Shown: positions 6,741 through 38,648 of the stretch, in pieces | Layout: each line of letters opens with the position of its first letter | Position numbering within the stretch: position 1 is the first letter of the stretch | Notes under the pieces: generated by a model | Databases searched by the model: none | The model's input: the letters and a program-made list of their open reading frames with translations, nothing else | Told to the model about the DNA's origin: nothing | Position numbers and translations under genes: made by a program | Source: Posidoniimonas polymericola | GTDB taxonomy: Bacteria; Planctomycetota; Planctomycetia; Pirellulales; Lacipirellulaceae | NCBI RefSeq assembly: GCF_007859935.1 | Contig: NZ_SJPO01000019.1 | Location: 1-64,000, forward strand | Direction of reading: 5' to 3' | Length of the DNA: 64,000 nt

Positions 6741-6744
6741 CGTT

Positions 6745-7617: not shown

Positions 7618-7656
7618 CGCGGCGGAGCAGGGCAGGGGAGCGGCAAAGCCCCTATC

Positions 7657-8982: not shown

Positions 8983-9093
8983 GTAGGCGGGACTGGGACG
9001 GCGGGCGCGGGGGATGGGCTGGTTCAAACCCACACGATAAGCCTCACACCAGCGGTCCGCTACCCACCGCTCCGCTGAGAATCGCAAGCTCCA

Positions 9094-9190
9094 GTAGCCG
9101 ACGGATCACATCCGTCGGATGCGCTACGGCAAATGTTCCTGACGGGCGAATCGCACGCAGGGTCTCCGGCAGATGTAATCTGTCGGCTAC
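9094..9190. repeat. 97-bp imperfect inverted repeat
   Basis: The arms GTAGCCGACGGATCACATCC... (9094-9118) and the complement of 9166-9190 agree at about 20 of 25 positions. The element lies between the pseudo-hydrolase and pyrC, both on the minus strand. A smaller hairpin (CCGACGGAT/ATCCGTCGG) nests in the left arm. It could act as a terminator-like structure or be a miniature repeat. Confidence 0.7.
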
Positions 9191-9205
9191 TAACCGAGAG
9201 CGGCC

Positions 9206-9958
9206 CTAGACCTTGGCCGCGGCCGCGCCGCACACGATCTCCATCATCCAGCGGTCGAAGTCGGCCAGCATGGCGGTGGTCAGGTCGTCGCCGCCGGGGT
9301 ACTGGCGGACGCTCACCGTGGCGCCGGCCGAGTGCAGCAGCCGCAGGTCGTCGCAGAGCTGCTGCTCGGGGTACTCCTGGCTCTCGCGGCTGCTGGACAG
9401 CAGGATCGGCAGCGAGCGGAGCTCGTTGACGCGGCCGAGCGGCGAGTTGCCGGTCGGCAGGGCGCCGTCGAACGTGGCGGCGCCGGCGAACGTTTCTGGG
9501 TGACGCATCGCCAGCCGCATGGCCAGCGTGCCGCCAGCTCCGACGCCGGCCAGGAACACCCGGCGGTCGTTGATGTTGAACCGCTGGGCCTGCTGGAGGG
9601 CGTCGAACACGCGGTCGGCGGCCTCCTCGACCGAGTCGGGGGCGTCCGACCACGCGTAGCCGCCTTCTACCTCGAGGCTCTCGTCGACGCCCCGCGGCGC
9701 GACGGCCAGGTAGTTGCGGGTGCTGACGTGCCGCATGACGTGGGGCAGGTCGCACTCGTTCTGGTCCTGGCCGTGCAGCCAGACGACCAGTGGGTAGGCG
9801 TAGTTGCGTTCGAAGTTCTGCGGCACGAAGGTCGAGACCGGCGTCTCTTCTCCGGAGGCCTCGTAGAGCTGGATGCGGTCTTCGCTGGGGCGCTCGACCG
9901 TGCTCGTGAACGCAAGTTTGATGGCGGGGAGGGGGGACATGCTCTTGAAACGGTTCAT
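9206..9958 (-). CDS. Alpha/beta-hydrolase-fold protein lacking catalytic Ser and His
   Basis: A 250-residue protein with the esterase/PHB-depolymerase-like alpha/beta hydrolase layout: an oxyanion-side VVWLHGQDQNE (58-68), a nucleophile-elbow region VFLAGVGAGGTLAMRLA (134-150), and a late strand ending VRQYPGGDD (217-225). In active relatives the elbow reads G-x-S-x-G and the late loop PGGH. Here the nucleophile position is Gly140 and the histidine position is Asp224, so the classical triad is gone. It may bind a ligand or protein without hydrolysing it. No N-terminal signal peptide is obvious. It is a single gene between mdh and pyrC. An alternative start is ATG six codons downstream. Confidence 0.75.
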   Translation of the reverse strand: MNRFKSMSPLPAIKLAFTSTVERPSEDRIQLYEASGEETPVSTFVPQNFERNYAYPLVVWLHGQDQNECDLPHVMRHVSTRNYLAVAPRGVDESLEVEGGYAWSDAPDSVEEAADRVFDALQQAQRFNINDRRVFLAGVGAGGTLAMRLAMRHPETFAGAATFDGALPTGNSPLGRVNELRSLPILLSSSRESQEYPEQQLCDDLRLLHSAGATVSVRQYPGGDDLTTAMLADFDRWMMEIVCGAAAAKV

Positions 9959-10195
9959 GCGGAGTGGTCTGTCGTCGCGGGGGAGGGGGCCGGGTCAGGC
10001 GGGGCGGCGGGCTGCCGGGCAAGAGGCGTTTGGTGGCGGAGCAGGCTGCGGCATGGTCACCTCGGGCGGGGTTCGCTGCGGGCAGTAGGGCCGGTCGTCA
10101 CGCGGCGTGACAGCCGACTTGGCAAACGCGAACGGGGACGATAAATCAGTCCGCCGGGGGTGTCAACGGAAGGCTGCAGAATCGCCGCCGGCGCC

Positions 10196-10217
10196 AGCAC
10201 ACGCGGGCGCGTGTGCT
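10196..10217 (-). terminator. Perfect 10-bp hairpin downstream of mdh
   Basis: AGCACACGCG (10196-10205) and CGCGTGTGCT (10208-10217) form a perfect stem about 20 bases after the mdh stop. No T-run follows, so it may be a 3' stabiliser or a Rho-dependent end. Confidence 0.5.
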
Positions 10218-10237
10218 AGCACGGCGGGATGCGAGGG

Positions 10238-11512
<1,275 letters not shown>

Positions 11513-13597
11513 ATGGCCAGCGGCGACGGAGCGGACCAAGGATGGGTCCGCCGTGCCCAAGACCTGATCCTGCCGGTCGCCATTATCGCCAGCGTGCTGG
11601 TGATTATGGCGCCGCTGCCGCCCGCGTTGATGGACGTCCTCCTGGCGGCCAACATCACGGTTTCGGTCATCGTGCTGCTGACGACTATCTACGTCCGCAC
11701 GCCGCTGGAATTCAGCATCTTCCCGTCGCTGCTGCTCGCCACGACCCTCGCCCGGCTGGTGCTCAATGTCGCGACGACCAGGCTGATCCTGACCGGCGCG
11801 CCGCGCCTCAAGGAGCACGCAGCGGGCGACGTCATCATGGCCTTCAGCGACTTTGTCGCCGGCGGCGACCGGATCGTCGTGGGCCTGATCATCTTCTCGA
11901 TTATCATCATCATCCAGTTCGTGGTGATCACCAAGGGCGCCACGCGCATTAGTGAAGTCGCCGCGCGGTTCGCGTTGGACGGCATGCCCGGCAAGCAGAT
12001 GGCGATCGACGCCGACCTGAACGCCGGCATCATCGACGAGCGTCAGGCGAAGGCCCGCCGCGAAGAGATCACCGAGCAGGCCGACTTCTTCGGCGCCATG
12101 GACGGCGCCAGCAAGTTTGTCCGCGGCGACGCTGTGGCCGGCATCATCATCACGGTGGTCAACGTGCTGGGCGGCCTGATCATCGGCGTCGCGCAGGAGG
12201 GGATGTCGCTGGCCGAGGCCGGCTCGCTGTTCACCCGCCTGACCATCGGCGACGGCCTGGTGAGCCAGGTGCCCGCGTTCCTGATCTCGTTGGCGGCCGC
12301 GTTGCTCGTGACCCGCAGCTCACAGAAATCCAACCTGCCGCAGGAGTTCCTGGGGCAGCTGTTCTCGCGTCCGCAGGCGTTGATGGTCACCGGCGCGTTC
12401 CTCGGCGTGCTGATCTTCACGCCGATGCCCCGGATCCCGGTCGCCGCGCTCGGCCTGTCGTGCGTCGGGCTGGCCCGCGTGCTAGGCCGCAAGGAGTCCG
12501 AAGCCGAATCGGCCAAGGAGAGCGAAGAGGAATCGGCCGCTGCGGCGCCCAAGGAAGAACGCGTCGAGGACTTCTTGTCGGTTGACCCGATGGAGCTGGA
12601 GCTCGGCGTCGGGCTGATCCGCCTGGCCGACCCCAACCGCGGCGGCGACCTGCTGGACCGCGTGCAGCGGGTGCGTCAGAACGTCGCGGCGGAGATCGGC
12701 ATCATCATGCCGAAGGTCCGCATCCGCGACAACATGCGGCTCGACCAGAACCAGTACCGCATCAAGATCGCCGACATGCCGATCGCCACCGACGAGGTCG
12801 AGCCCGGCAGCCTGCTGGCGATCGACTCGGGGCTGACGACCGGCGCGGTCGAGGGGGTCGACACCAAGGACCCCGCCTTCGGCACCGACGCCAAGTGGAT
12901 CTCGCCCGGCCGTCAGGACGAGGCCGAGATGCTCGGCTGGACGGTCGTCGAGCCGGGCGCGGTGCTCGCCACGCACCTCACCGAGATCTGCCGCCGCCAC
13001 GCCGACGAGATCCTCACCCGCGACTCCGCCAAGCACCTGATCGACGAGCTCAAGGCCAGCTCGCCCACCGTGGTGGACGAGCTGATCCCCGGCGTGATGA
13101 CGCTGGCCGAGGTTCAGACCGTCCTGCAGCACCTGCTGCGGGAGCAGATCTCGATCCGCCAATTGTCGATCATCCTCGAGGCGCTCGGCGACCACGGCGG
13201 CAAGACCAAGGACCCGGTGCTGCTGACCGAGTTCGTCCGCCACCGCCTGGCGCGGCAGATCTGCACCCGCTACCGGGACCGCGAGAACCAGCTGCACGTC
13301 GTGGCGGTCGACCCGGGGTTGGAGGACCAGATCCGCGGCGGCTTCGAGCACAACGAACGCGGCCTGTTCATCCGTATGGCGCCGCAGCAGATCGAGGCGC
13401 TCGTCGACAAGCTGCGGGGCGAGCTGCAGAAGCTGTCGGTGATGGGCCACACGCCGATCGTGCTGGTCAGCCCGCAGATCCGCGCCGCCCTCAAGCAGAT
13501 GACCGAGACCCACCTGCCAACCCTCGTGGTGCTGAGCTTCAACGAGGTCACCCGCGACACCAGCATTGTCACCCACGGGCTGGTCTCCGCCGCCTAA
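11513..13597 (+). CDS. flhA: Flagellar export gate protein FlhA
   Basis: A 694-residue inner-membrane export-gate subunit of the flagellar type III apparatus. About eight membrane segments fill residues 15-310, with the conserved cytoplasmic loop GMPGKQMAIDADLNAG in the FHIPEP region. An acidic linker near 330-355 (SEAESAKESEEES) leads into the cytoplasmic domain that docks chaperone-substrate complexes. I chose ATG 11513 because CGGAG sits eight bases before it and the resulting length matches the family; in-frame ATGs at 11477 and further up would add a non-conserved leader. It is the first gene of the flhA-flhF-flhG-small ORF-fliA set. Confidence 0.95.
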   Translation: MASGDGADQGWVRRAQDLILPVAIIASVLVIMAPLPPALMDVLLAANITVSVIVLLTTIYVRTPLEFSIFPSLLLATTLARLVLNVATTRLILTGAPRLKEHAAGDVIMAFSDFVAGGDRIVVGLIIFSIIIIIQFVVITKGATRISEVAARFALDGMPGKQMAIDADLNAGIIDERQAKARREEITEQADFFGAMDGASKFVRGDAVAGIIITVVNVLGGLIIGVAQEGMSLAEAGSLFTRLTIGDGLVSQVPAFLISLAAALLVTRSSQKSNLPQEFLGQLFSRPQALMVTGAFLGVLIFTPMPRIPVAALGLSCVGLARVLGRKESEAESAKESEEESAAAAPKEERVEDFLSVDPMELELGVGLIRLADPNRGGDLLDRVQRVRQNVAAEIGIIMPKVRIRDNMRLDQNQYRIKIADMPIATDEVEPGSLLAIDSGLTTGAVEGVDTKDPAFGTDAKWISPGRQDEAEMLGWTVVEPGAVLATHLTEICRRHADEILTRDSAKHLIDELKASSPTVVDELIPGVMTLAEVQTVLQHLLREQISIRQLSIILEALGDHGGKTKDPVLLTEFVRHRLARQICTRYRDRENQLHVVAVDPGLEDQIRGGFEHNERGLFIRMAPQQIEALVDKLRGELQKLSVMGHTPIVLVSPQIRAALKQMTETHLPTLVVLSFNEVTRDTSIVTHGLVSAA

Positions 13598-13645: not shown

Positions 13646-14824
13646 ATGTCGTCCATCAAAACCTACCGAGCGAAGAACCTCCGCGACGCGCTCGACCTGA
13701 TCCGGGCCGACCTCGGACCCGAGGCGTCGGTGCTGCACACCCGCGAGGTGCGCCGCGGCCTGCTGGGGCGGATGCTGCACGGCGCGCAGATCGAGGTGGC
13801 GGCCTCGACGACCGTCGACGTGCCGAGCCGGTTTGCCCCCGAGGCGGTGGCGCCCGAGCCGGCCGCCCAGCAGCGTGAGCCGCAGCCGCCCTCGCTGCTC
13901 GACGTCGACTACCGCGCCCGCTACCGCGAGGCCGTGCGGCTGCAGTCATCGCCGGAGCTCGACGAGCTGGGCGCCCGCATCAAGCAGCTGTACTCCGACT
14001 CGGGCTCGGACGCCGCTTCGAGCCGCGACATGCCGGACGCCTGCTTCCACGCGTTCACCGACCTGATCGAGGCGGGCGTCGACGAGACCACCTGCCGCGC
14101 CCTGCTGGAGGAGGCCCGCCGCGGCGTTCCCGACGCCCAGGCGCACGACTTCCACGCGTTGTGGGGCGGCATCGAGCGGCTGGTCGCCGACCAGCTGCCG
14201 ACCACCGGCGGCATCCGCTTGGCCGAGGGCGAGCGCCGCATCGTCGCGTTGGTCGGCCCGACCGGCGTCGGCAAGACCACCACCATCGCCAAGCTGGCGG
14301 CCAACTTCCGCCTCCGCGAGCACCGCCGCGTCGGGCTCGTGACGGTCGACACCTACCGCGTCGCGGCGGTCGAGCAGCTACGCACCTACGCCGACATCAT
14401 CGACCTGCCGATGGAGGTGGTCGGCACGCCCCGCGAGATGCGCGAGGCAATCGGCCGGCTGTCGGACCTCGACCTGGTGCTGGTCGACACCGCCGGCCGC
14501 AGCCCGCGCGACGAGGTCAAGATCCAGGAACTCAAGTCGATGCTTGGCGAGGCCCGCCCGCACGAGGTGTGCCTGGTCCTGAGCTGCACGTCGGGCGAGC
14601 AGAACCTGAAGGTCACCGCGGACAAGTTCGCGCCCGCCGGCGTGACCTCGATGATCTACACCAAGCTCGACGAGGCGACCAGCCTCGGCCACCTGCTGCC
14701 GGTCACCCGTTCGCACGGCCTGCCGGTCAGCTACCTGACCGACGGTCAGAACGTGCCGGACGACATCCAGATCGCGAGGTCGTCTGACCTCGCCCACCGC
14801 CTGTTCGAGGCGCCCGCCCAATGA
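13646..14824 (+). CDS. flhF: Flagellar biosynthesis GTPase FlhF
   Basis: A 392-residue SRP-type GTPase that places and numbers flagella at the cell pole. The N-terminal B domain contains MSSIKTYRAKNLRDALDLI, typical of FlhF. The G domain has GPTGVGKTTT at 204-213, DTYR, DTAGR and TKLDE. A variable Pro/Ala-rich linker lies at about 55-90. It follows flhA after 48 bases and overlaps flhG by four bases (ATGA), indicating translational coupling to its usual partner. Confidence 0.95.
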   Translation: MSSIKTYRAKNLRDALDLIRADLGPEASVLHTREVRRGLLGRMLHGAQIEVAASTTVDVPSRFAPEAVAPEPAAQQREPQPPSLLDVDYRARYREAVRLQSSPELDELGARIKQLYSDSGSDAASSRDMPDACFHAFTDLIEAGVDETTCRALLEEARRGVPDAQAHDFHALWGGIERLVADQLPTTGGIRLAEGERRIVALVGPTGVGKTTTIAKLAANFRLREHRRVGLVTVDTYRVAAVEQLRTYADIIDLPMEVVGTPREMREAIGRLSDLDLVLVDTAGRSPRDEVKIQELKSMLGEARPHEVCLVLSCTSGEQNLKVTADKFAPAGVTSMIYTKLDEATSLGHLLPVTRSHGLPVSYLTDGQNVPDDIQIARSSDLAHRLFEAPAQ

Positions 14825-19998: not shown

Positions 19999-20223
19999 CC
20001 GACACGGCGCGCGGGTGGCGAAAGTTTTTTGGCTTCGCCCGTCCGCGAACTCGGCCTGCTAGCAGGTGGCTCTCAATCGCAGCGAGCCGGTGCGTGGGCG
20101 GCAGAGTATCCCGCAGCGTAGGGCAGCTTACTAAGCACGAGCAGACGCGATGCCGATGATCTGCCATAGTCCCGCCCTGCGACGCGGCAGCCAACCTTAC
20201 CCCACCCTCAGGCGCTACGAACC

Positions 20224-20406
20224 ATGCCCAAGACCACTCTCAAGCTGCTGGCCCTGATGCTGATGTCAACCGCTTGCCTGGCCGCGACCGGCTGCCACCT
20301 CATGCCGGGACGCTCGCACTCGAGCGACGACGCGGGCTCCATGGGCGCGTGCAGCGGCGGCGGCTATCGCAGTGGCGGCGCGTGCTCGATCGGCGCAGCG
20401 ATGTAG
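20224..20406 (+). CDS. Small secreted lipoprotein
   Basis: A 60-residue protein with a lipoprotein signal: [20 protein letters not shown] then AATGC, a plausible lipobox with Cys24 as the lipidated residue. The mature part of only ~37 residues is Gly/Ser-rich with two further cysteines (GACSGGG and GACSIG). No family recognised. It stands alone between divergent and convergent neighbours. Confidence 0.6.
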
Positions 20407-20448
20407 GCTCACCGCTCGGCGGCGGGGTGGCCCGCTGCGCTGCCCGGA

Positions 20449-21192
20449 CTAGCGGTTGAACTGCGGCCTGGCGACCACGCCGGGGAACTTGCCCTCTCCG
20501 TTCTCGGCCGGCGTGCGGCCGAGCACCAAGTCGCACTCGGCAGAAAGCTCGCCGAGCTGCGACCCCTCGATCGGGCGGAAGTCGACCACCACGCTGTCAC
20601 GCTGGGCGTCGGACAGGCCGCGGAGGATGCCGTCCCGTTGGTTCTGCGGCTCGCCCTTGACAAAGAACTGCGTCGTTAGCACGCGATGACCATTCTGGCT
20701 CACCGCTACGTGGATGTGGGGCGTGCGGCCAGGGTACGGGACCGGCTTGATCGTGCGGAAGTAGTAGCGGCCCTGGGAGTCGGTCAGGAAGCGGCCGTAC
20801 CCCTGGAAGTTCTTGTCGCGGGCGCCCGCGCCGTTGGAGCCCGAGTGCAGGTAGACGCCGTGGTTGTCGACCTGCCAGATCTCGATCACCGCGTTGCGGA
20901 GCGGCTCACCCGCCGGGCTCAGTGCGCGGCCCGACAGGTGCGTGATCGCCCCGACCGCGTGGTCGATGGCGTCGTTGACGATGAGGAGGTCGTTGTCGGT
21001 GTCGAGCGGCAGGCTGTCGGGGTAGAACGGCCCCTCGGTCATCCGCGGTGTGGCGAGCAGGTCGGCCAACGCCCCACTCGGCAGCCCCGCCAGGCCGGCA
21101 GCGGCGGCGCCTATGCGGGCCGTGTTCCGCAGGAACAGGCGGCGAGAGAGCTCAAAACGGTGGGACAACTCGGATGCGTGGTGGTCCATCAT
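20449..21192 (-). CDS. Tat-exported intradiol ring-cleavage dioxygenase-like protein
   Basis: A 247-residue protein of the intradiol dioxygenase family (protocatechuate/catechol dioxygenase fold). A twin-arginine signal, SRRLFLRNTARIGAAAAGLAG, lies near residues 16-36, so it acts outside the cytoplasm. The iron site is recognisable: Tyr in DNHGVYLHSG, Tyr in QGRYYF and the two His of TPHIHVAV. TEGPFYPD is also typical. Whether it cleaves catechol-type aromatics, perhaps from algal or plant matter, is inferred. Two adjacent ATGs (21192, 21189) are possible starts. No degradation-pathway neighbours are present. Confidence 0.85.
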   Translation of the reverse strand: MMDHHASELSHRFELSRRLFLRNTARIGAAAAGLAGLPSGALADLLATPRMTEGPFYPDSLPLDTDNDLLIVNDAIDHAVGAITHLSGRALSPAGEPLRNAVIEIWQVDNHGVYLHSGSNGAGARDKNFQGYGRFLTDSQGRYYFRTIKPVPYPGRTPHIHVAVSQNGHRVLTTQFFVKGEPQNQRDGILRGLSDAQRDSVVVDFRPIEGSQLGELSAECDLVLGRTPAENGEGKFPGVVARPQFNR

Positions 21193-21327
21193 CAAGGCCT
21201 TGTGGTGAGCGGCTGACGGAAACGTCGGCCGGGAGTAAACCCCGCGGGCGGCGCCAGGGGCCGACGGTTTAGGAGAGATTTCGTGCTCGGCGTGTCCCCA
21301 CGTCAAACGGAAAACTCACCGGCGATT

Positions 21328-23169
21328 CTACTCCAGTTCCGCGGTACGCGTCCGCGTTGCGGCAATCTCTACCGCGGGGAGCTCGTAGCACGCCATCTCG
21401 ACGCCGTTGCGGACGAACAGCCGGCCGTGCGCCAGCACCGGGTGGTTCCAGGTTTTTCCCTCGAGCACCTGCATGCGGCTGAGTTCCCGCGGGCCCTCGG
21501 GCGAGGGCGCCATCAGCACCAGCTCGCCGGTGTGCTCGGTCATAACCAACAGCGCGTCAGACTTCTCCGCCAGCACCACCTGGCCGCAGCCAAACTGTGT
21601 CTGCCGACGCGTCCGCTTCGGCCAGGCGAGCTCGCCGGTGCTGGCGTTGACGCAGGTGAAGAACTTGTCGTCGAAGCCGTACAGGTAGCCGTCGTGCAGC
21701 AGGAAGTCGTTGAAGTAGGGCCGCAGCACGCGGCTCTGCCAGAGCGTCTCGGTCGACCAGCGGCCCTCGTCGTGCGCGACCCGGATGCCGTGGGCGCCGT
21801 ACCCGTAGCCGCTGGCCAGCACCAAGGTCTGCTCGTCGACCACCACCGGCTGGGCGATGCGGGGGAACTCGCCGGTGCTCCACTCATAGAACCACAGCCG
21901 CTCGCCGGTCGCCGGGGCGAGCGACTCCAGACCGGCATTCGAGGTGCACAGCAGCTGTGGCGCGCCGTGCAGCTCGACGAGCATAGGCGTGCAGTAGGAG
22001 TGGTCGCCGACGCCGGCGGTCCAAACCGGCTCGCCGGTCTCGCTGTCGTAGGCGACGACTGCCTGACCTGTGGGGTCGGCGTCGCCCGGCGGGTTTCCCG
22101 CGTAGACCACCACCAGGGCCGACTCGCCGTGGGGAACGATCAACGGGCTGCTGGCGAATCCCCACTCAGGGGGCGCGTCGCGCGGCAGGTCGTCGGTCAG
22201 GCTCCGCTGCCACGCGACCGCGCCGGTGGCCGCGTCCATCCGCGTCACGGCGCCGGCCGCCCCGCACGAGTAGACAGCGCCGGCGGAGAAGCTGGGCGTC
22301 GCGAGCGGCCCGGGGCCGGACTCGACCTTGTAGAACCGCGCCGGGGTCGTGGCGGACCAGGCCTCGTCGCCGGTGTTGCCGTTGTAGCAGACGGTCGCCT
22401 CGAGCTCGCCGCGCTGCTCCTGCGTGTAGACCCGGTCGCCGATCACTGCGAAGGACGACCAGCCGGGGCCCACGCGCCGCCGCCAGAGCTGACGCGGCGC
22501 GTGCAGCCCCCAGTCGGTGGGGAACGCCGCGCCGTGGAAGACGCTGTCTTGGTCGGGGCCGCGGAACGCGGGCCAGTCGCCCGGCGAGAGCGAGACCTGC
22601 TGGTCGGTCCCCGGGGTGGCAGCGTCGTCGCTGCGGTTTTCTTGTCGGTTGTAGCGGCGTTGCGCGAGGAAAATCTCCTCCGCGGTCGGCAGTCCCCGCC
22701 AGGACAACTGCAGCGCGAGTGTGCCGTCGCTGCCGTCGACGCGCACGCCGCTCCACACGACCACGGTCATGATCAACCACGCCAACGCTACCCAGCGGGC
22801 GGCGTTCCACGGCAGCGGCTTCGACAAGAGGAAGCCGAACGTGGTCGCCGACAACAGGCACGGGATGAGCATCGTCAGCAGCGGCATCGGCTGGCTGGCG
22901 GTGGGGTGGAACAGGAACTGCGTGCCGACCAGCAGCAACGCCGCCAAGAGCAGCAGGCCGCTCACGCGGTCGGGCCACGGCACGCGGCTCGCCAGCAGCC
23001 ACCAGACAAGGTAGCCGACCGTCCCGCCGCCGAGGCCCACCATCAGCGACCACATGGTGGCCATCCCAAACGGGACGAGCGAGGTCGGCACGATGATCGA
23101 GGCCCACATCACGACCACCAGCAGCACCGCCGGCCAGACGCGAAGAGGGTTGGGGTTCGCTGCAGCCAT
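21328..23169 (-). CDS. Membrane-anchored PQQ-type beta-propeller protein
   Basis: A 613-residue protein with an N-terminal membrane domain of about five hydrophobic helices (residues ~10-165) and a large exported PQQ-like beta-propeller. The propeller blades are marked by repeats such as AVIGDRVYTQEQRGELEATVCYN, YSCGAAGAVTRMDAATGAVAWQ and VVAYDSETGEPVWTAG. DWPAFRGPDQDSV before the propeller is a typical planctomycete lead-in. No catalytic PQQ-dehydrogenase residues are obvious; a binding or scaffold role is more likely. The ATG at 23169 begins just before the first membrane helix; the open frame upstream reads as non-coding. Confidence 0.8.
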   Translation of the reverse strand: MAAANPNPLRVWPAVLLVVVMWASIIVPTSLVPFGMATMWSLMVGLGGGTVGYLVWWLLASRVPWPDRVSGLLLLAALLLVGTQFLFHPTASQPMPLLTMLIPCLLSATTFGFLLSKPLPWNAARWVALAWLIMTVVVWSGVRVDGSDGTLALQLSWRGLPTAEEIFLAQRRYNRQENRSDDAATPGTDQQVSLSPGDWPAFRGPDQDSVFHGAAFPTDWGLHAPRQLWRRRVGPGWSSFAVIGDRVYTQEQRGELEATVCYNGNTGDEAWSATTPARFYKVESGPGPLATPSFSAGAVYSCGAAGAVTRMDAATGAVAWQRSLTDDLPRDAPPEWGFASSPLIVPHGESALVVVYAGNPPGDADPTGQAVVAYDSETGEPVWTAGVGDHSYCTPMLVELHGAPQLLCTSNAGLESLAPATGERLWFYEWSTGEFPRIAQPVVVDEQTLVLASGYGYGAHGIRVAHDEGRWSTETLWQSRVLRPYFNDFLLHDGYLYGFDDKFFTCVNASTGELAWPKRTRRQTQFGCGQVVLAEKSDALLVMTEHTGELVLMAPSPEGPRELSRMQVLEGKTWNHPVLAHGRLFVRNGVEMACYELPAVEIAATRTRTAELE

Positions 23170-23511
23170 CGCGCGACGCGTCCTTGTGTCTAGGTTAGCC
23201 CGGTGTCTTGGGAAGCCCGTGTCTGGGGAATAATCGTGCCGGGCAAGCCTGGGCCGCAGGGGATCCGGGCGGCGACCAGGGGAGGGCGGGCAGTGGCCCG
23301 ATTCGGTCGCCGCCGCTATTGTACGTCCGGCACGCCGGTTTGGCACTACGAGAGCCGACCTGCTTCCCGCAGCCATCAAGAAGCTTCGCGCAACCATCGG
23401 GCCTTGCGCCGCCAGAGACCCCGGCCGACCAGCGGGAGGCCGGACCTCGAGTTTCGACGCCCGAAGCTACGGCCCATTCACCGCGCAACCATCACGCAGG
23501 AGCCCCTCACC
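23170..23511. other. Divergent intergenic region, nothing recognised
   Basis: The gap between the PQQ-propeller gene (minus) and the nitroreductase gene (plus). It must hold promoters for both, but I see no clear hexamers, repeats or hairpins. Confidence 0.4.
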
Positions 23512-24120
23512 ATGGACACCCTCGATGCGATCGAGCAGCGCCGCTCTGTCAAGCAGTACGACTCCTCCGTCGAGATGCCCGAGGAGGACATCCAGCGGCT
23601 GCTGGACCTGGCCCTCCTCTCGCCCACCTCGTTCAACATCCAAAACTGGCGGTTCGTTGTGGTCCGCAACCCGGAGCAGCGGAAGCGTCTGCGGGCGGCG
23701 GCGTGGGACCAGGCCCAGGTCGAGGACGCGCAGCTGCTGCTGGTGCTGTGCGGGGACCTCAAGAGCTGGGACAAGGACCCGGCCCGCTACTGGCGCAATG
23801 CCCCCGAGGCGGCCCAGCAGCAGATCGTGCCGATGATCGGCGAATTCTACACCAACCAGGGCGAGCAGACCCAGCGCGATGAGGCAATGCGCAGCTGCGG
23901 CATCGCCGCGCAGACGCTGATGCTGGCGGCCAAGAGCATGGGCTACGACAGCTGCCCGATGATCGGTTTTGATCCGCAGCAGGTCGCCGAGCTGATCAAC
24001 CTGCCCGACGACCACGCCATCGGCCTGCTGCTGGCGATCGGCAAGGCGGCCGCGCCGGCCCGGCCGCGGGGTGGGCAGCTCGACAAGGACGAGGTGGTCG
24101 TCACCGACCGCTTTGCGTGA
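23512..24120 (+). CDS. Nitroreductase family protein
   Basis: A 202-residue FMN-dependent nitroreductase-family oxidoreductase. IEQRRSVKQYD at about 6-16 holds the FMN-phosphate arginines, SPTSFNIQNWRFVVV at about 37-51 the flavin loop, and GLLLAIGKAA near the end the closing strand. The protein is cytosolic and normally reduces nitro groups or quinones with NAD(P)H; the physiological substrate is unknown. AGGAG lies ten bases before the ATG. Confidence 0.9.
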   Translation: MDTLDAIEQRRSVKQYDSSVEMPEEDIQRLLDLALLSPTSFNIQNWRFVVVRNPEQRKRLRAAAWDQAQVEDAQLLLVLCGDLKSWDKDPARYWRNAPEAAQQQIVPMIGEFYTNQGEQTQRDEAMRSCGIAAQTLMLAAKSMGYDSCPMIGFDPQQVAELINLPDDHAIGLLLAIGKAAAPARPRGGQLDKDEVVVTDRFA

Positions 24121-24740
24121 GGTCAGTTGTTCAAGGAATGGACAAGGCCGCGGCACCAGCAAGCGAGCACTAAGGGAAGTATCCCTGCACCTCACGGACC
24201 GCCGGTGGTGCTCCCCGCTTTCGCGTCGGGCTTGTATTGAGGGAAACCTCATGGCCCCCGGCTCTGCCGGAAGTTTGAACGTACCCACTACAGCGAGCCA
24301 CTGTCCGGCAGTCCGCCCTTGGCGCCCGTTTCGCCCTGGCCGCAAGCTGGTCAGCCGCGCAAATCAGCAGCGTCACCAGCCGATGCAATGCGTCAGCCGG
24401 CCGCCCGGACGCGTCGGTGTTCGACCAGGAACAGGAGGACGCAGAGTGAGCCGAGGAAGAATACGACCGAGCTGCTCCTCTGCTGTCTCTGCGATCTCCT
24501 GTTCAAATCACCTACAAGCCCTTCGTGTGGCAGCGACTCTCGCCCGCGATGAAGTCCGCCCGCCAACAGGTTCGGATCGGGCGACAGTCGGTGTCGCTTG
24601 CGACAAGAGGCGATCGATTCGCAACCGGACGTAGGCCTCAAATTGCCTCTTGTGCTGCGTGCACCAACGCGTCGACGGAATGGGCTCCGAATCGCCGAGG
24701 TTGGGCACACCGCGGGCAGTTTGGAGGTACTGCCGACCTG
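24121..24740. other. Gene-poor accessory stretch
   Basis: No intact gene is supported. Two minus-strand open frames overlap at 24393-24710: one carries a hydrophobic end (SSSVVFFLGSLCVLLFLVE), the other a charged stretch (QHKRQFEAYVRLRIDRLL). Together they could be a broken small membrane-protein gene, but no family is recognisable. A short stretch near 24196-24240 reads on the minus strand as NTSPTRKRG, a phrase I associate with dispersed planctomycete intergenic repeats. Confidence 0.4.
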
Positions 24741-24857
24741 CCTAACGAAAGCGATAACTGGCCTTTATACAGCCAGCAAAGACAAGTGAACAAGATGAAG
24801 ACAGGCTCTCCGCAACGACGGCAGCTGTATAAAGGTCCAGTTCATCGCCTGGTTAGC
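24741..24857 (-). other. attC-like integron recombination site
   Basis: Inverted arms 24741-24774 and 24824-24857 pair almost end to end. Outer ends read GCCTAAC and GTTAGC, close to the RYYYAAC/GTTRRRY core. Inside, AACTGG/CCAGTT and CCTTTATACAGC/GCTGTATAAAGG pair, with single unpaired bases (an extra G and an extra A in one strand), as in the extrahelical bases of attC sites. Total length ~117 fits attC. On the minus strand it begins seven bases after the stop of the AT-rich gene. Confidence 0.65.
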
Positions 24858-24863
24858 TGCTTT

Positions 24864-25193
24864 TTAGGCGGTTGCCCATGTTGAGACTACGGAATGGAAC
24901 TCGGCTGGGTCGTTTGGAGTGAAGCGAACCTTCTTGAAATAGCCATGCTTCTTTGTTATTTCAACATGAGGAAATAAGTCTGCGAGGTCTAATTTGAGAG
25001 CCCAGAAAACGGAGCGAATTACTGGTGGTTTGCAAATTTTAATTTCAGTAAATTCTGATTTTGGAATAACAATGACTTTTCTGAAAAATTCAAATTCAAG
25101 TTCAATTCGGTCGCCATAGACTCGGTAGCAATTCCAAAGACTTCTGAACGAAGGTTTGGTTTCAAATAAGAGTGTGTTTTCTGGAGAACTCAT
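24864..25193 (-). CDS. AT-rich hypothetical protein in cassette-like unit
   Basis: A 109-residue, probably cytosolic protein with no recognised family. It is rich in Phe, Lys, Glu and Ile, with a likely beta-strand pattern (RIELEFEFFRKVIVIPKSEF) and no signal peptide. Base composition is clearly lower in GC than everything around it, and codons such as ATT, AAA and TTT are used freely, a sign of recent transfer. The start ATG at 25193 lies within 16 bases of a GTTAGC core-like site, and the stop is seven bases from the attC-like hairpin. This compact layout is that of an integron gene cassette. No integrase lies in the window. Confidence 0.7.
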   Translation of the reverse strand: MSSPENTLLFETKPSFRSLWNCYRVYGDRIELEFEFFRKVIVIPKSEFTEIKICKPPVIRSVFWALKLDLADLFPHVEITKKHGYFKKVRFTPNDPAEFHSVVSTWATA

Positions 25194-25232
25194 TTAAAGT
25201 GCAGCTAACAATAAATGGACAGAAACAAATCT

Positions 25233-25345
25233 GCCTAACCCATTAAGCAGTCGGCTCCATTGTCGTCGCAACACCAGCCGCCTACAAGGTTTGCGAACTC
25301 GACGGGGGGAGAATCGACGAGATAGACAGAACTTAACGCGTTGCC
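25233..25345 (-). other. Second, degenerate attC-like inverted repeat
   Basis: GCCTAACCCATTAAGCAG at 25233-25250 partly matches the complement of ACTTAACGCGTTGCC at 25331-25345, about 13 of 17 positions. It lies just upstream of the AT-rich gene, where a cassette array would have the previous site. An additional GCAGCTAAC core-like string sits at 25201-25209. Much weaker than the first site. Confidence 0.35.
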
Positions 25346-25440
25346 AGCGAAAGGGGACCTGAAAGTACGTGGAGAAGCTTCATCCAGCTGCAGCTGAAGA
25401 GGCTTTCCTACCGCGTTTTCACACTCATTTAACCTGCCGA

Positions 25441-25461
25441 GGTTGTCACAACCTCGGTCAG
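25441..25461. repeat. Palindromic 21-nt repeat, copy 2
   Basis: Identical over 21 bases to 761-781. Here the palindrome reads GAGGTTGTCACAACCTC, with 8-base arms around a central C. It lies ~60 bases before the first copy of the 356-bp repeat. Confidence 0.6.
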
Positions 25462-25501
25462 ATTTGTGACCCCCGCAACTGCACAGGACTCATCGTCCTT
25501 T

Positions 25502-25857
25502 GCAGTGTATCAAAGTCTTATCGTCTCGCCGGGCCACGTGGTTTCAGGAACTGCGTCTGGGTGGCGGGCGCCAGTTGTGGTCCCGGCCGCAGCTGCAGCC
25601 GGCTCGGTCCTATTGATCGCTGCGCCGCCAATGGACCGAGGCCGACCAATGGAAGGCCGGCTTCCGTGCGAGCAGTCTCAACGTGGCGGGGTCATTCGCC
25701 GCGCAGTCGTGTATAAGGGACGTCTGGGCGGCCACAACTGTCGACCGTTTTGTTGTAGAGATGAGCCGGCAGGCGCGGTCTAACTAGCAGGGTACAGGAG
25801 CACCGTTTTGCCAGGACAGACCCACGGCTGGCGCCGTGGGCTGGGGCGTTGCTGCGC
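25502..25857. repeat. 356-bp direct repeat, copy 1
   Basis: This copy and the one at 28566-28921 are the same length and nearly identical by eye, with scattered substitutions. Both end with the hairpin CCCACGGC/GCCGTGGG. They flank the pseudopilin and PEP-CTERM genes in direct orientation. A shared open frame (ending ...ANGPRPTNGRPASV...) exists in both, but the differences fall mostly at amino-acid-changing positions, so I do not treat it as a gene. Confidence 0.85.
25821..25840. repeat. CCCACGGC hairpin repeat
   Basis: CCCACGGC, loop TGGC, GCCGTGGG. The same 20-mer occurs at 28884-28903 and, reverse-complemented, at 48146-48165; variants are at 29151-29170 and 52228-52247. Confidence 0.7.
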
Positions 25858-25880
25858 CGGGTGCGGAGCGGAAGAGGGCG

Positions 25881-26912
25881 TCAGGGGAGATCATCCCCAT
25901 GAATGGTCGCCATCGCCCGCCAGACTCGGAGCTCGACGTGGTCCGCCACAAAACGGACGCTGCCGTCGGCGTAGGCGGCGTTGACTCCGCTGGGGTGCTG
26001 GCTGCGTGCGGCCCGCCAGCCGAACGGAGTGAAACGCTGTTGATCGTTGCCCGCTAGCAGCACCCCCATACAGTCTGGCGTTGATGCGTTCGGCGCGTCG
26101 TGGTGGTTGTACAGGCCGCAGCGGAATTCTCCGTTGGCCCATGAGAAGCCGCGCGGATCCTTGTAATTCCAGGTTTCGCTAGACCTGCAACCGGCGGTGG
26201 TGAGCGGCGCCTGGAACATCATCTTGTAGTCGTACCGAGGATCCATGGTGGTTTGGCCCGGCACGCCTAAGGTGCTTTCTGAGAACAGGATTGTCTTGGC
26301 CAGGCCGTCGGTGATCTCTGCGGGGCGGGTCCTACTGTTGACGCCAAACGGGCCATCGACCGTCCGGGGCGTGCCCGAAACTCCCCCGGTGCCGGTGCTT
26401 GCCGCGTAGTTCGTCGGGCCGAACTGGGGGTGGATGCTTGCGCTGATATCCGAAGGGCAGAGGAACTCCGGCACGAGCTGGCGAACCGCCGAGACATTCT
26501 CGTCGGTCACCTCCGCGTTGATGTTCTTGTAGAGCGGCCTGGAGAGGTCGAGCGCGTCGTAAAGTGGACCGCCCTCGAGGTAGGGCAGCAATTGGGCGAG
26601 CGCCGACCACCGGTAAAATGTCCACTCACTGATTGTCAGGTCGCGCGGGGGCGGCTTGGCGACCGTGCCCGCCGGCAGTCCCCCCACGGCCGCCAGATGA
26701 TTCTGCGCGGCCAGGCCGACCTGCCTAAGATTGCTGGCGCAGGCGCCTCGGCGGGACGCCTCGCGGGCCATCTGCACCGCGGGCAGGAGCAGCCCGATCA
26801 GCACTCCGATAATCGCGATAACCACCAGCAACTCGACCAGCGTGAACGCGCGGCTCGCGTCGTTTGAGCGGTGCTGCACGGCGGCTCTGGCGATGGTTGG
26901 TAGCGGGGCCAT
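25881..26912 (-). CDS. DUF1559 pseudopilin
   Basis: A 343-residue DUF1559 protein. The prepilin motif [11 protein letters not shown] lies at about 21-31 with the hydrophobic N-helix to about 48 and MAREASRRGACASNLRQVGLA after it, as in the family. The C-terminal end carries the H-x9-DG signature (SQHPSGVNAAYADGSVRF). It starts three bases after the PEP-CTERM gene stops, so the two are one transcript. Such paired genes recur in planctomycetes; the pseudopilin may form part of a cell-surface export or fibre system, which is not established. Confidence 0.9.
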   Translation of the reverse strand: MAPLPTIARAAVQHRSNDASRAFTLVELLVVIAIIGVLIGLLLPAVQMAREASRRGACASNLRQVGLAAQNHLAAVGGLPAGTVAKPPPRDLTISEWTFYRWSALAQLLPYLEGGPLYDALDLSRPLYKNINAEVTDENVSAVRQLVPEFLCPSDISASIHPQFGPTNYAASTGTGGVSGTPRTVDGPFGVNSRTRPAEITDGLAKTILFSESTLGVPGQTTMDPRYDYKMMFQAPLTTAGCRSSETWNYKDPRGFSWANGEFRCGLYNHHDAPNASTPDCMGVLLAGNDQQRFTPFGWRAARSQHPSGVNAAYADGSVRFVADHVELRVWRAMATIHGDDLP

Positions 26913-26915
26913 AGG

Positions 26916-28175
26916 CTACCTGCGGCGGTGGAACAAGCCTCCCAGCACTGCCGTCGGTAGCAGCACTGCGGCGGCGGGCTCTGGGGTGACAGCGGTGAAG
27001 GTCTGCTCGACGATGACGGCGTTGTCACGCCACACTGTGTAGTCGGCCGCGTCGATTTGGCCGTCACCGTTGCCATCGGCGTTACTGAACGGTGTGACGC
27101 GGGCGCCGTACGACTGTCGCCACAACGCGTAGTCGGCGGCGTCGACGGCGCCGTCACGGTTGTAGTCGCCCGTAGTCTCGACAACGCCTGGCACGAGCAC
27201 CATCGAGCCGATGGGCGAAAGGTCCGAGGCCAGCCTGCCAAGGAACGCCCCCGAGGCGTCGTAGCGAAGCAGCTCGCCAAAGTTCTTGGGGCCGCCGCTG
27301 TAAATCGACGTAACGCCGAGCGTCGAGACTAGCAGTTCGCCCGACGGCATGTGAACCAGGTCCGACACATAGTGGATCCCGCCCTGATCGCCCGGCAGGT
27401 TGTCTTCGGGGTCGTAGTCAAGAGGGGCGGGCACACTGAACTCGGTCGTGTAGGCCCCCTGGTCGGAGAACTTAACTACGCGGTTGCTGATGAGGTCGGC
27501 GACCCAGAAGCTGTCGTCTTCGTTGACCAGTAGATTGGTGGGCGAGAAGAGGAAGCTTGCCTCTTCTGGGACCAGCTTCGTCACCGCGGGTTCGACGCCC
27601 GCGTAGACGGCGTTCTCGTTGGGATTGGCGTCCATCTCGATGACAAAACTAGTTGAGAGCAGTGTGCCGTCGCTTTGGAAACCGAGCCCTCCCGCCCCAC
27701 GCAGTCCGGTCACCGCGTCGGTGCGGCTGCCGTCGGTCACGTCGTAGCGGTAGACCTTGGTCCCCGCGTTGTCCGCCACGTACAGGTAGCCATCGGGGCC
27801 AAAGTGCAACCCGCCCGGCGCGGCAGTAATCTCTTCTCCGCCGGGCTCCGCCGGCGGGTAGTTCGGCAGCATCGCGAACACCCCGTCGCCGATCGGGGCG
27901 CCGGTCTGCAGGTCGTACTGCAGGATCTGACCAGCGAACCGGCTTGACACGTACAGCACCCCTGACCCGTCAACCGCCACTCCAGAAACTGGGCCAAACG
28001 CGTTAGGGCTGGCCGCTGCTACGCCCCAGCCTGGGATCGGCGCGCCGGTCAGCTCGTCAAACCTGGCGATGGTTCCCTCTTGAGACTGGGCCAAGAGAAT
28101 GTCAGCGGATGCAATCGAACAGTTCAAGCAGGACAACAAACAAGTCGCCATTAGACGCCACGATCCAACTGGCAC
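26916..28175 (-). CDS. Secreted beta-propeller protein with dockerin-like repeats and PEP-CTERM tail
   Basis: A 419-residue exported protein. A signal peptide covers about residues 1-24 (R7, then ATCLLSCLNCSIASA). An NHL/SMP-30-like propeller follows, with blades such as GVAVDGSGVLYVSS and GLHFGPDGYLYVAD. Two dockerin-like calcium motifs, DYNRDGAVDAADYALWRQ and DGNGDGQIDAADYTVWRD, sit at about 340-385. The tail PEPAAAVLLPTAVLGGLFHRRR is a PEP-CTERM sorting signal. The GTG at 28175 is preferred because AGAGGT lies about six bases upstream and the signal needs the arginine; ATG 28151 is the alternative. It is co-transcribed with the next pseudopilin. Confidence 0.85.
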   Translation of the reverse strand: MPVGSWRLMATCLLSCLNCSIASADILLAQSQEGTIARFDELTGAPIPGWGVAAASPNAFGPVSGVAVDGSGVLYVSSRFAGQILQYDLQTGAPIGDGVFAMLPNYPPAEPGGEEITAAPGGLHFGPDGYLYVADNAGTKVYRYDVTDGSRTDAVTGLRGAGGLGFQSDGTLLSTSFVIEMDANPNENAVYAGVEPAVTKLVPEEASFLFSPTNLLVNEDDSFWVADLISNRVVKFSDQGAYTTEFSVPAPLDYDPEDNLPGDQGGIHYVSDLVHMPSGELLVSTLGVTSIYSGGPKNFGELLRYDASGAFLGRLASDLSPIGSMVLVPGVVETTGDYNRDGAVDAADYALWRQSYGARVTPFSNADGNGDGQIDAADYTVWRDNAVIVEQTFTAVTPEPAAAVLLPTAVLGGLFHRRR

Positions 28176-28353
28176 GAGCCACCTCTACTTCGTCAATGGG
28201 TGCAAACATTCTGGGCGGGGGCCGGCGACTTGGGCCGGGGGGCGCCGCACGATTGCGGCTGGTGAGGCCCCGAATATAACACACCACGAGGATCGGATGT
28301 TACGCAAAATATCGGGGTTTTATTCGTGTTCTTAACGCCCCGGCTTGGAATGC

Positions 28354-28442
28354 TCATCTGCCGGCTCGTAGCCGAAGCACTGAAATAAAACGCCCAGCGG
28401 CGGTCGATCTCGTCCTCGGCGTTCTCGGGGGTCTTCGGCCGA
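28354..28442 (-). pseudogene. Frameshifted remnant of sulfotransferase C-terminus
   Basis: Read on the minus strand, this fragment encodes KTPENAEDEIDRRWAFYF and, after a one-base frame change, CFGYEPADE. The intact sulfotransferase ~0.9 kb away ends KTPETAKDEIDRRWAWYF then QRFGYAPADS. About 30 codons of homology remain; nothing of the rest of the gene is visible on its 5' side. It is a decayed duplicate, lying just outside the second 356-bp repeat. Confidence 0.8.
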
Positions 28443-28499
28443 GTGCCATGCCTACCAGCGACAGCGGGCAGCTATGCTTTGCACGATCTGAAACTCGAA

Positions 28500-28529
28500 C
28501 ATGCTCACCCGCTATCGCGTGTGAGCATG
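28500..28529. repeat. Hairpin CATGCTCAC/GTGAGCATG
   Basis: Nine-base arms with a 12-base loop. It resembles in layout the hairpin at 63427-63458 (CATGCCTAC...GCAGGCATG) that ends the last gene of the window. Here no gene end is adjacent, so it is probably a stray copy or the 3' relic of a lost gene. Confidence 0.5.
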
Positions 28530-28565
28530 GCGCCCCCAAGATCCTCGGCGGATTCATCGACCTGC

Positions 28566-28921
28566 GCAGTCTAGCAAGGTCTCATCGTCTCGCCGGGCCG
28601 CGTGGTTTCAGGAACTGCGTCTGCGTGGCGGGCGCCAGTTGTGGTCCCGGTCCCAGCTGCAGCCTGTTAAGTCTTATTGATCGCTGCGCCGCCAATGGAC
28701 CGAGGCCGACCAACGGAAGGCCGGCTTCCGTGCGAGCAGTCTCAACGTGGCGGGTTCATTCGCCGCGCAGTCGTGTATAAGGGACGTCTGGGCGGCCACA
28801 ACTGTCGACCGTTTTGTTGTAGAGATGGGCCGGCAGGCGCGGTCTAATTAGCAGGGTACAGGAGCACCGTTTTGCCGGGACAGACCCACGGCTGGCGCCG
28901 TGGGTCTGGGGCGTTGCTGCG
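28566..28921. repeat. 356-bp direct repeat, copy 2
   Basis: Second copy of the repeat at 25502-25857, same orientation, ~3.06 kb away. Similarity may extend weakly ~20 bases further upstream (GGATTCATCG against GGACTCATCG). No target-site duplication or terminal inverted repeat is evident, so the mechanism of duplication is unclear. Confidence 0.85.
28884..28903. repeat. CCCACGGC hairpin repeat
   Basis: Exact copy of the hairpin at 25821-25840, inside the second 356-bp repeat. Confidence 0.7.
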
Positions 28922-28975
28922 CGGTCGGTGAGGTTGGCTCGCGATGGAGAGGGTGGAGCTGCGAGCGGCGGCGGC

Positions 28976-29130
28976 TGGGACAAAACCCCAGGGACGGACA
29001 AGACCCCGCGGTGTGCCGACCGCTGAAATTCGCGGAAACGCAGCTAAACAAGTGTGAGAAGAGAATCCCGGGGGAAGTGCGGGCCGGGGTTTTGTCCCCT
29101 TCGCTCGATTTTTCGGACTAAACGAAGGGG
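28976..29130. repeat. Nested inverted repeats in intergenic DNA
   Basis: GGGACAAAACCCC (28976-28988) is perfectly inverted as GGGGTTTTGTCCC (29086-29098). Directly overlapping the right arm is a second hairpin, CCCCTTCG (29096-29103) with CGAAGGGG (29123-29130). The rest of this ~290-base stretch before the sulfotransferase gene shows no gene. Confidence 0.65.
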
Positions 29131-29150
29131 AGCAGATGTTGGTCGGCGAT

Positions 29151-29170
29151 CCCACGACTGGCGCCGTAGG
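29151..29170. repeat. Degenerate CCCACGGC hairpin
   Basis: CCCACGACTGGCGCCGTAGG differs at two positions from the exact copies at 25821 and 28884; both changes weaken the stem. Confidence 0.55.
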
Positions 29171-29210
29171 CTGGGAGCGAGTCAATGGAAAGCTAAGTCG
29201 CGGGGCAACG

Positions 29211-30401
29211 CTACCCGGTAGGGGAATCGGCCGGCGCGTAGCCGAAACGCTGGAAGTACCACGCCCAGCGGCGGTCGATCTCGTCCTTGGCGGTTTCGGG
29301 GGTCTTCAGCCGGTTGGGCTGGTAGTCCTTGAGCGACGCCACGTACTCGGCGAGGGCGGGCTGCATGGCGTCGTAGCCGGGGAGCTCGAGCGTGTCATAG
29401 ATCTGCTTCACCACGCCGAGCGGGTCGGCGGCGAGCTGCTCGTAGCGGACCTCGCAGTACTGGCCGGGGGCGAGGGCGTCGGCCTGTTGGTCGTAGTGGT
29501 CGTACATCGCCTCGTAGCACTGGTGGACGTGCTCGTCGAACTCCGGGCCGTACTCGTCGCGGAGTTGGAAGCCCTGGGCCTCGTACAGGGCGCGCCAGGT
29601 CCGCTGCATCGAGGGGAACAGCGAGTAAGGGTGGCGGCTGATGTGCACGAACTTGGCGCCGGGGAACATGGTCGAGAGGAACTCGATCCGCCCGGTGTGC
29701 GGCGGCGACTTCAGCAGCAGCCGCTTGCCGTGCTTGTAGGTCAGCGCGCGGTAGAAGAAGGTGATGGCCTCAATGAACCGGCGGCGGTCGTCGCCCGTGA
29801 CGTCTCGCATGGTGAGCGTGTCGAGGTGCTCGGCCGGGTCCTTGGGGAAGCCCATCCGGTAGTACATCGACGGCGCGCCCATCACGGTCAGGCCGAATTC
29901 GTCTTCCTGCGGCCGCCCCATGCCGGTGGCCATGTTGTCCATCGGCCGCTTCGAAGGGAGGAGGATGTTGAGGATCTTGCCGAGCCAGCCTTCACTCACG
30001 ACGAAGTGCCAGGGGGCGAAGCACTGGTAGGTCGTGGCGTAGCCGAACTGCCGGTCGCGGATCAGCAGCTCGTGCAGGTGGGTCGTGCCGCTCCGCCAGT
30101 GGCCGATGATGAACACCGGGGGGTGCTCGATCTTGGCGTCGCGGATTTTGCGGCCGAAGAGCAGCTGCTGCAGGCCGTACAGCGACGAGTTCCACGGAGT
30201 CATCTGCCCCAGCACCAACGCCATGCCGATCCGCTGCGGGTCGATCCGGTAGCCGTGCTGGCGGAGCATGCGGAAGAAGTGCGTGAACCGCATCCCGCTC
30301 CAGATCCGCAGCGCCCACCACGGGTAGCTGTTGAAGCCTTCGGTCGGCTTGCCGCCGGCCTTGGCTGCGGGAGATGGGTTGGGCGCTTGGGGGTCGGGCA
30401 T
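29211..30401 (-). CDS. Sulfotransferase family protein
   Basis: A 396-residue PAPS-dependent sulfotransferase (Sulfotransfer_3-like). The 5'-phosphosulfate loop is GHWRSGTTHLHELL at about 100-113, and the 3'-phosphate site is VHISRHPYSLFPSM. LLLKSPPHTGRIEFL, with its lysine and serine, and the C-terminal RYEQLAADPLGVV helix are family features. It transfers sulfate to an unknown acceptor, perhaps a carbohydrate or lipid. I prefer ATG 30401 over the frame start 37 codons upstream, whose residues are Ala/Arg-rich. A decayed C-terminal copy lies at 28354-28442. It is a single gene, convergent with none and followed by the repeat-rich region. Confidence 0.87.
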   Translation of the reverse strand: MPDPQAPNPSPAAKAGGKPTEGFNSYPWWALRIWSGMRFTHFFRMLRQHGYRIDPQRIGMALVLGQMTPWNSSLYGLQQLLFGRKIRDAKIEHPPVFIIGHWRSGTTHLHELLIRDRQFGYATTYQCFAPWHFVVSEGWLGKILNILLPSKRPMDNMATGMGRPQEDEFGLTVMGAPSMYYRMGFPKDPAEHLDTLTMRDVTGDDRRRFIEAITFFYRALTYKHGKRLLLKSPPHTGRIEFLSTMFPGAKFVHISRHPYSLFPSMQRTWRALYEAQGFQLRDEYGPEFDEHVHQCYEAMYDHYDQQADALAPGQYCEVRYEQLAADPLGVVKQIYDTLELPGYDAMQPALAEYVASLKDYQPNRLKTPETAKDEIDRRWAWYFQRFGYAPADSPTG

Positions 30402-38565: not shown

Positions 38566-38648
38566 GTAGGCCGGAACAAGCGGCAGCGCTGTTCCGGCGC
38601 TTCCGGGCTGAAACTGCCGGAACAGCGCTAACGCTTGTTCCGGCCTAC
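38566..38648. repeat. Near-perfect 33-bp stem inverted repeat
   Basis: Arms 38566-38598 and 38616-38648 begin and end GTAGGCCGGAACAAGCG / CGCTTGTTCCGGCCTAC and differ at two internal positions, with a 17-base loop. It separates the HU-fusion gene from the HAD gene, both on the minus strand, and could end transcription or be a mobile miniature repeat. Confidence 0.85.

Follow-up and report, generated by a model that had tools for sequence, protein, structure and literature searches.

A cassette gene, its attC and an attI in the window

The window (the whole 64,000-nucleotide stretch of contig C19 of Posidoniimonas polymericola that was analyzed) carries on its minus strand, at positions 24864-25193, an open reading frame of 109 amino acids with an ATG start. 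The base composition of this region differs from that of its surroundings, with a GC content of 0.41 at 24750-25249 versus 0.59 to 0.75 in those 500-base segments of 20000-29999 that lie outside it, and the low-GC gene reported in a preliminary description of this DNA is thus real. The same description gave the protein no function, which agrees with the lack of any match to it in Pfam, PHROGs, PADLOC, PDB sequences, plasmids or phages; a single-sequence structure model of the protein (mean pLDDT, 38.5) was too poor for use. A consensus scan of 24600-25550 detected no sigma-70-type promoter, so that the gene appears, like those of integron cassettes, to have no consensus promoter of its own.

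Directly 3' of this single gene and in the same orientation lies an attC of 119 nucleotides with two extrahelical bases (24740-24858, minus strand), identified from DNA folds and covariance models. It combines the core sites AGCTAAC (R'', one base off RYYYAAC) and GTTAGGC (R') with folded arms, as expected of an integron cassette; the DNA fold reaches -24.1 kcal/mol (z score, -4.89), and none of 200 shuffled sequences folded equally well. The single unpaired bases occupy site positions 16 and 23, which are also unpaired in four other attC-like sites of the same genome (three on contig C2 and one on C3), one of the four being additionally unpaired at position 19. We built two covariance models, R1 and R2, on attCs of this and related genomes, with the window site left out. 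With filters off, a search of 24000-26000 gave the site 33.6 bits with R2 (E = 1.8e-10; runner-up, 6.7 bits) and 18.4 bits with R1 (E = 3.3e-4; runner-up, 7.2 bits), and the minus strand scored best. With default filters neither model reported the site, and in the genome-wide runs, with 150 candidates scored for each model, it was not among the matches listed, probably because of its long loop. The covariance-model check that had been proposed therefore gave significant scores with both models when filters were off and a miss with default filters, and the R2 score, the fold z score and the shared unpaired positions bear out the earlier claim that the hairpin is a true attC. Its placement right after the stop codon also stood, although the spacing is five bases by the present boundaries (24740-24858 and 24864) and not seven. 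A simple palindrome finder was unspecific (25 and 31 matches on the window strands versus 17 to 25 on shuffled sequences), and its output was used solely for picking candidates. The interspersed repeats present in the window and the genome would favor reading the hairpin as an ordinary one, or as an intergenic repeat, next to a small gene that is spurious or unrelated; however, the attC model score, the shared extrahelical positions, the attI described below and the homologous loci in other genomes leave this explanation with a negligible probability.

On the 5' side of the gene, what had been taken for a weaker attC-like repeat is instead an attI (family A, ...TTAGGCAGATTTGTTTCTGTCCATTTATTGTT; 25207-25295, minus strand; crossover GTT at 25207-25209) with 80% identity to the attI that is linked to the integron integrase gene (intI) of this genome. 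Its conservation ceases at the GTT, which is followed after 13 bases by the ATG of the gene, and the cassette measures 463 bp from this GTT to that of the attC (24744-25206, minus strand; crossover to crossover), according to the boundary convention observed in the related genome G027. Model R3 scored the attI at 85.7 bits (E = 1.1e-24), but the window copy was among the 18 training sequences of R3, and the independent evidence for an attI is therefore the blastn match to the intI-linked site. Together with an upstream part, the attI forms a block (25205-25499, minus strand) that is 83% identical over 295 bp (blastn) to an orphan platform on C2 and that ends at the attI crossover, as seen when six platforms of this kind, taken from two genomes, were aligned. 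A TTG(T/C)NG-17-GACAAT pair was found by eye in all four attI-A sites of the genome; the consensus scan gave no promoter. The left part of the block holds a palindrome, CCGAGGTTGTGACAACCTCGG (25437-25457; one mismatch to its own reverse complement), with near-copies on C5, past the intI 3' end, and at the C2, C5:93k, C8 and C2:95k loci; it is not integron specific, since a similar site lies at 757-777 of the window without an integron. The right flank carries a motif, GCGGTGTGCCCAACCTCGGCGA (24692-24713, minus strand), of which the genome has eight copies with at most three mismatches (none in a reversed control), five of them no more than about 110 bases after an attC. At the copies at C2:757617, C1:143630 and C12:133136, the genome-wide attC runs list no attC, and these three may mark further or empty platforms.

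Judged from its sequence, the unit at 24740-25296 (minus strand) is an integrase-less integron platform consisting of an attI and one AT-rich cassette that ends in an attC. The attI lies upstream of the first cassette, as in a complete integron, but no intI adjoins it, and the best tblastn match to an intI in the window had an E value of 0.57. An attI with one cassette and no intI points to an orphan platform rather than to a stray cassette. The preliminary description had suggested a CALIN (a cluster of attCs without an integrase) or a stray cassette: a true cassette with an attC and no nearby intI is indeed present, but the attI is at odds with a stray or attC-only element. Parts of PMC8618304 (The Natural History of Integrons) and PMC12901181 describe attG sites and the insertion of cassettes off target, and the attC without a nearby intI would suit an origin as a CALIN or by attG-like insertion; this origin is nevertheless very improbable, given that the insertion point carries a conserved attI that matches the intI-linked one.

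The integrase and the two attI families

The statement that no integrase is present held for the window but not for the genome, in which the advised search for intI found a single integrase above the cutoff. This gene lies on contig C5 (465613-466572, minus strand), scores 440.7 bits with TIGR02249 against a cutoff of 265 and has a frame without stops, and the five other TIGR02249 matches in the genome stayed below the cutoff (at most 80.6 bits). The adjacent attI reads TGCTTAATGGGTTAGGCAGAATTGCTTCTGTATACTTATTGTTAGC and resembles the window sequence that ends at 25205 (minus strand). Contig C5 ends about 0.5 kb past this attI, after one open reading frame, and about 0.7 kb past intI. Locus L093 (5700-7700; C2, about 95.7-97.7 kb) contains a group II intron, recognized by the Rfam models RF02001 and RF01998, that lies within or next to an attC but on the other strand; a 479-amino-acid open reading frame there reads like a reverse transcriptase. 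Contigs C21 and C4 also start with the intron end sequence, which points to more copies and to contigs broken within arrays. Arrays that break contigs, together with the early end of C5, could mean that the window locus is an assembly artifact, namely, a piece of the C5 intI array broken at a contig end. However, the locus is situated 24 kb into C19 and is flanked by genes that neighbor each other in the same-genus genome G001, and the same arrangement occurs in one-contig and two-contig genomes (G011 and G027), making an artifact extremely improbable.

A blastn search with window positions 25190-25345 recovered copies on C19 (the window itself), C2 (90%), C3 (75%) and C5 beside intI (80%), and four more short matches, all with E values above 1. 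The genome thus has three orphan attI-A sites (on C19, C2 and C3) without intI, and three attCs follow the C2 copy and one follows the C3 copy. Further attCs, for which a whole-genome search had also been recommended, were found, e.g., at C2, C3, C5:93k and C8:93k. Among 59 genomes (this one and 58 relatives), a 101-base attI-A query was present in 6, and a sequence model of 18 attI-A sites matched at least 26 places in at least 10 of the 43 family genomes. There were at least four sites in the P. polymericola genome, six in G011, four each in G021 and G017, three in G004 and one each in G061, G032, G019, G026 and G013; the matches in G026 and G013 and one of those in G011 were weak (E above 3e-5), and the intI-linked G017 site had an E value of 3.4e-5. 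All attI and attC counts are lower bounds, with 101 candidates scored for attI-A and 150 for each attC run, and the related genomes are species representatives, several of them fragmented. A match to intI at E ≤ 1e-40 was obtained in 10 of the 43 family genomes. The attI-A sites adjoined intI only on C5 and at one G017 site, where intI carries one in-frame TGA, and the remaining 24 of 26 did not. A pattern scan matched 11 contigs, of which those from Nostoc, Ignavibacteria, Desulfobulbus and a marine-glass MAG were rejected as likely due to chance, their upstream parts being unmatched.

Four attC clusters of the P. polymericola genome (C5:93k, C8:93k, C2:95k and C5:350k) start with a second attI, ...GAAGAAGTTTCTGTCTAATAACAAGTT, and this attI-B also adjoins intI in G027 and, in a more diverged form, in G004. 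A search with one 116-base query (E ≤ 0.001) placed attI-B at 45 or more sites, partial and weak matches included, in at least 17 of the 43 family genomes. Minimum numbers per genome were 6 for P. polymericola (one of only 23 bases, hence five or six places besides the orphan attI-A sites), 10 for G027 (from the best 20 of 26 candidates), 6 for G016, 5 for G007 and 1 to 2 for the others. The IntI of P. polymericola may not use these sites, since attI-B differs from the attI linked to its gene. Overall, at least 21 of the 43 family genomes had a match to attI-A or attI-B, weak ones included, and 16 of these 21, among them some fragmented assemblies, had no intI match at E ≤ 1e-40. In G027, at least 10 attI-B sites accompany one intI, and the platforms lie up to megabases apart.

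Crossovers, polarity and the corresponding locus in the same genus

Both families behaved as attI sites with respect to the crossover. For attI-A (n = 18), mean pairwise identity was 0.84 in the 24 bases up to the GTT versus 0.31 in the next 24, and for attI-B (n = 19) the values were 0.97 and 0.31; the sites used were the 18 of 26 A sites and 19 of 25 B sites with a recognizable core, and because they were chosen by the core motif, the identities before the GTT are inflated and the informative part is where identity drops. Of 51 attI sites, 45 (22 of 26 A sites and 23 of 25 B sites) had an attC in the same orientation no more than 3 kb downstream, and two of the six sites without one lie at contig ends (514 and 601 bp). 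Around the 51 attI sites, 100 attC matches were downstream in the same orientation, 7 were upstream (at two tandem attI sites and within one long array) and none was on the opposite strand. This count comprised the R1 and R2 matches at E ≤ 0.01 plus the window site, with near-duplicates of the two models entered once and with opposite-strand matches that overlapped a same-strand attC set aside as palindrome reflections; at most 11 of the 100 attCs were training sequences of R1 or R2, all at attI-A loci and none at B loci. It drew on the 26 attI-A matches and on 25 of the 45 attI-B matches (6 from P. polymericola, 10 from G027, 5 from G007 and 1 each from G021, G019, G062 and G061) and omitted loci L069 and L070, which duplicate L128 and part of L126; the crossovers of five B sites were placed by hand, two of them (L180 and L181) being without a GTT. 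The window unit falls within a class of dispersed orphan platforms, defined by an attI with one or more cassettes, no intI and several occurrences per genome at unrelated loci.

The only same-genus genome among those searched for attI-A was G001, and it is collinear with the window on both sides of the locus: window positions 20465-23190, 23512-24121 and 25897-27962 correspond to 6733-9435, 9629-10238 and 10258-12316 of its locus L207. The flanking genes are about 20 bp apart in G001 versus about 1.77 kb apart in the window, and the stretch that G001 lacks spans 24122-25896 (approximate limits). Query and model searches of G001 gave no match to attI-A or attI-B. On this sequence comparison, G001 is best read as having an empty site at the locus, although a deletion in G001 may have occurred instead of an insertion here. 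The objection that the gene and hairpin might be fixed at this place in all close relatives does not apply, as the collinear G001 locus has no such unit. The neighboring nitroreductase gene was found in 17 genomes, including that of P. polymericola, and of the four regions compared only G001 was collinear on both sides. The stretch missing from G001 also contains an interspersed repeat of about 372 to 373 bp (25486-25857, plus strand; 94% identical to 28550-28922) that does not belong to the integron proper; because this repeat runs into the left end of the platform block, the limits given for the insertion are approximate. Elsewhere in the window, positions 38566-38648 form an 83-bp palindrome, with 84% agreement between the stretch and its reverse complement.

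Shared cassettes, intI remnants and relation to known systems

Cassettes shared between sites were found in G027. Three of its orphan platforms, L162, L164 and L165, have the same 172 bp leading to the GTT and diverge after it. Platforms L163 and L168, in contrast, are 87% identical over 103 bp (blastn; 53 of the last 100 positions agree without gaps), and the next 512 bases, from GTT to GTT, are identical, with identity stopping at the GTT of the attC; by sequence, one 512-bp cassette is present at two platforms without intI. Similarly, the intI-linked array L087 contains the first cassette of L162 (4 mismatches in 897 bases), and the sequences differ beyond both crossovers. Ends that coincide with both crossovers would be unexpected of a segmental duplication, and the sharing fits action in trans by the single IntI of G027; the same cassette may also have been taken twice from outside, or have been inserted in cis before intI was lost. 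In the P. polymericola genome and in G021, G011, G017, G007 and G004, platform stretches were shared between sites but, among matches of more than 120 bp at more than 85% identity, none of cassette length was found between platforms, so recent exchange was observed in G027 only. Matches of about 130 bp in G007 were rejected as shared cassettes, being copies of a palindromic interspersed repeat (GGGGACAGGTCC ... GGACCTGTCCCC) at L171 8378, L172 10270 and several places in L175. Two longer shared stretches were also seen. In G011, L076 543-5245 and L125 12493-17165 share 4.7 kb at 93%, with open reading frames of 310 to 520 amino acids, several kilobases from two orphan platforms and in different relative orientations. 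Within the intI-linked array L087 of G027, 11979-12646 and 14123-14790 agree over 668 bp at 99.7% and are probably duplicated cassettes.

Because the same captured genes occur at different sites of a related genome, one enzyme encoded elsewhere probably loads the cassettes. We consider it probable that the window unit is an orphan platform among several dispersed attI outlets and that the single IntI of the genome most likely loads and removes cassettes there in trans. We infer that the enzyme encoded at C5:465613-466572 would insert and excise the window cassette by attI x attC recombination, that the cassette would be expressed from the platform and that several cassette outlets in the cell would be served by one enzyme.

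The main rival is that a once complete integron at this locus, or copies of one, lost intI and left an inactive attI with its last cassette. In a tblastn search of 49 loci (E ≤ 1e-3), truncated intI lay at five orphan sites: the C-terminal 64 amino acids in G032 (92% identical to the IntI of P. polymericola), 91, 55 and 29 amino acids in G007 and 45 amino acids in G017. These five sites are relics; two more matches, with 27 to 32% identity, were taken to be other recombinases. Additionally, G011 (one contig, six attI-A sites) and G021 have attI sites and no intI match at E ≤ 1e-40, and parts of PMC9024848 present CALINs as proposed degraded integrons. The truncated genes and the lack of such a match in G011 imply that some platforms are now inactive unless another enzyme serves them. 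However, the same search detected no intI remnant around the C19, C2 and C3 sites, five G021 sites or nine G027 orphan sites. An upstream block unlike the intI-linked one is common to the six platforms of type A that were compared and to most of those of G027, a genome that has both identical platforms with different cassettes and different platforms with the same cassette. With this evidence on both sides, descent of the window unit from a decayed integron is unlikely, if still to be reckoned with. A tblastx comparison of the flanks of 17 attI-A loci (best 25 pairs listed) returned the platform and isolated short matches, and none of the pairs listed had shared neighboring genes, except for the G032 intI remnant. 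More tentatively, and with somewhat less than even confidence, we propose for the Lacipirellulaceae a distributed integron with one integrase and up to nine extra attI platforms, in which the remnant-free platforms (about 170 to 295 bp, ending at the crossover) would be a non-autonomous element that multiplies on its own and offers new capture and expression sites to a shared cassette pool.

The window unit resembles a chromosomal integron (intI, attI and a cassette array) in the anatomy and orientation of its attI, attC and cassette and in having a related attI with intI in the genome; unlike there, intI is not adjacent, and a genome has several attI sites, on different contigs or, in G027, megabases apart. 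It resembles a CALIN in having an attC without a neighboring intI but differs in its conserved attI and in its one attC, and passages of PMC9024848 set two attCs as the default minimum at which IntegronFinder 2.0 reports a CALIN. CALINs are presented as degraded, off-target or rearranged, with attI placed close to intI, in sections of PMC9024848, PMC12444791 and PMC8618304, and a passage of PMC12444791, on Xanthomonas integrons, states that CALINs are mobilized in trans. The unit also resembles attG sites, genomic cassette targets away from an integron, but portions of PMC12901181 and PMC12444791 describe these as divergent from classical att sites, whereas the target in the window is an attI copy. 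Among the matches listed, the open-license PMC literature gave no description of orphan, repeated or dispersed attI platforms, and the passages cited here likewise mention no attI platform that recurs across loci. According to the part of PMC9024848 on detection, IntegronFinder 2.0 detects no attI outside class 1, and such platforms are thus a type of site that lies outside its search beyond that class. If our reading is true, cassettes could reside at many places in the genome while depending on a single enzyme, and repeated attI platforms with shared cassettes would explain some CALINs.

The delta-attI-type cassettes of class 1 and 2 integrons, as treated in parts of PMC12901181, are likewise attI copies away from the position next to intI, and such copies are reported there to be functional in IntI1 assays; they sit inside mobile arrays, whereas whole platforms occupy separate loci here. 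Tandem attI sites in the same orientation, about 1.3 to 2.9 kb apart, were observed in G004 (L071 12191/13468) and G011 (L125 5595/7681 and L074 8941/11812, the second of the latter pair being weak) and recall delta-attI-type cassettes. In G034, two integron integrase genes with equal scores lie 2 Mb apart (G034:C1:2048489 and 4117625), with attCs at the same relative places, and probably represent a duplicated complete integron.
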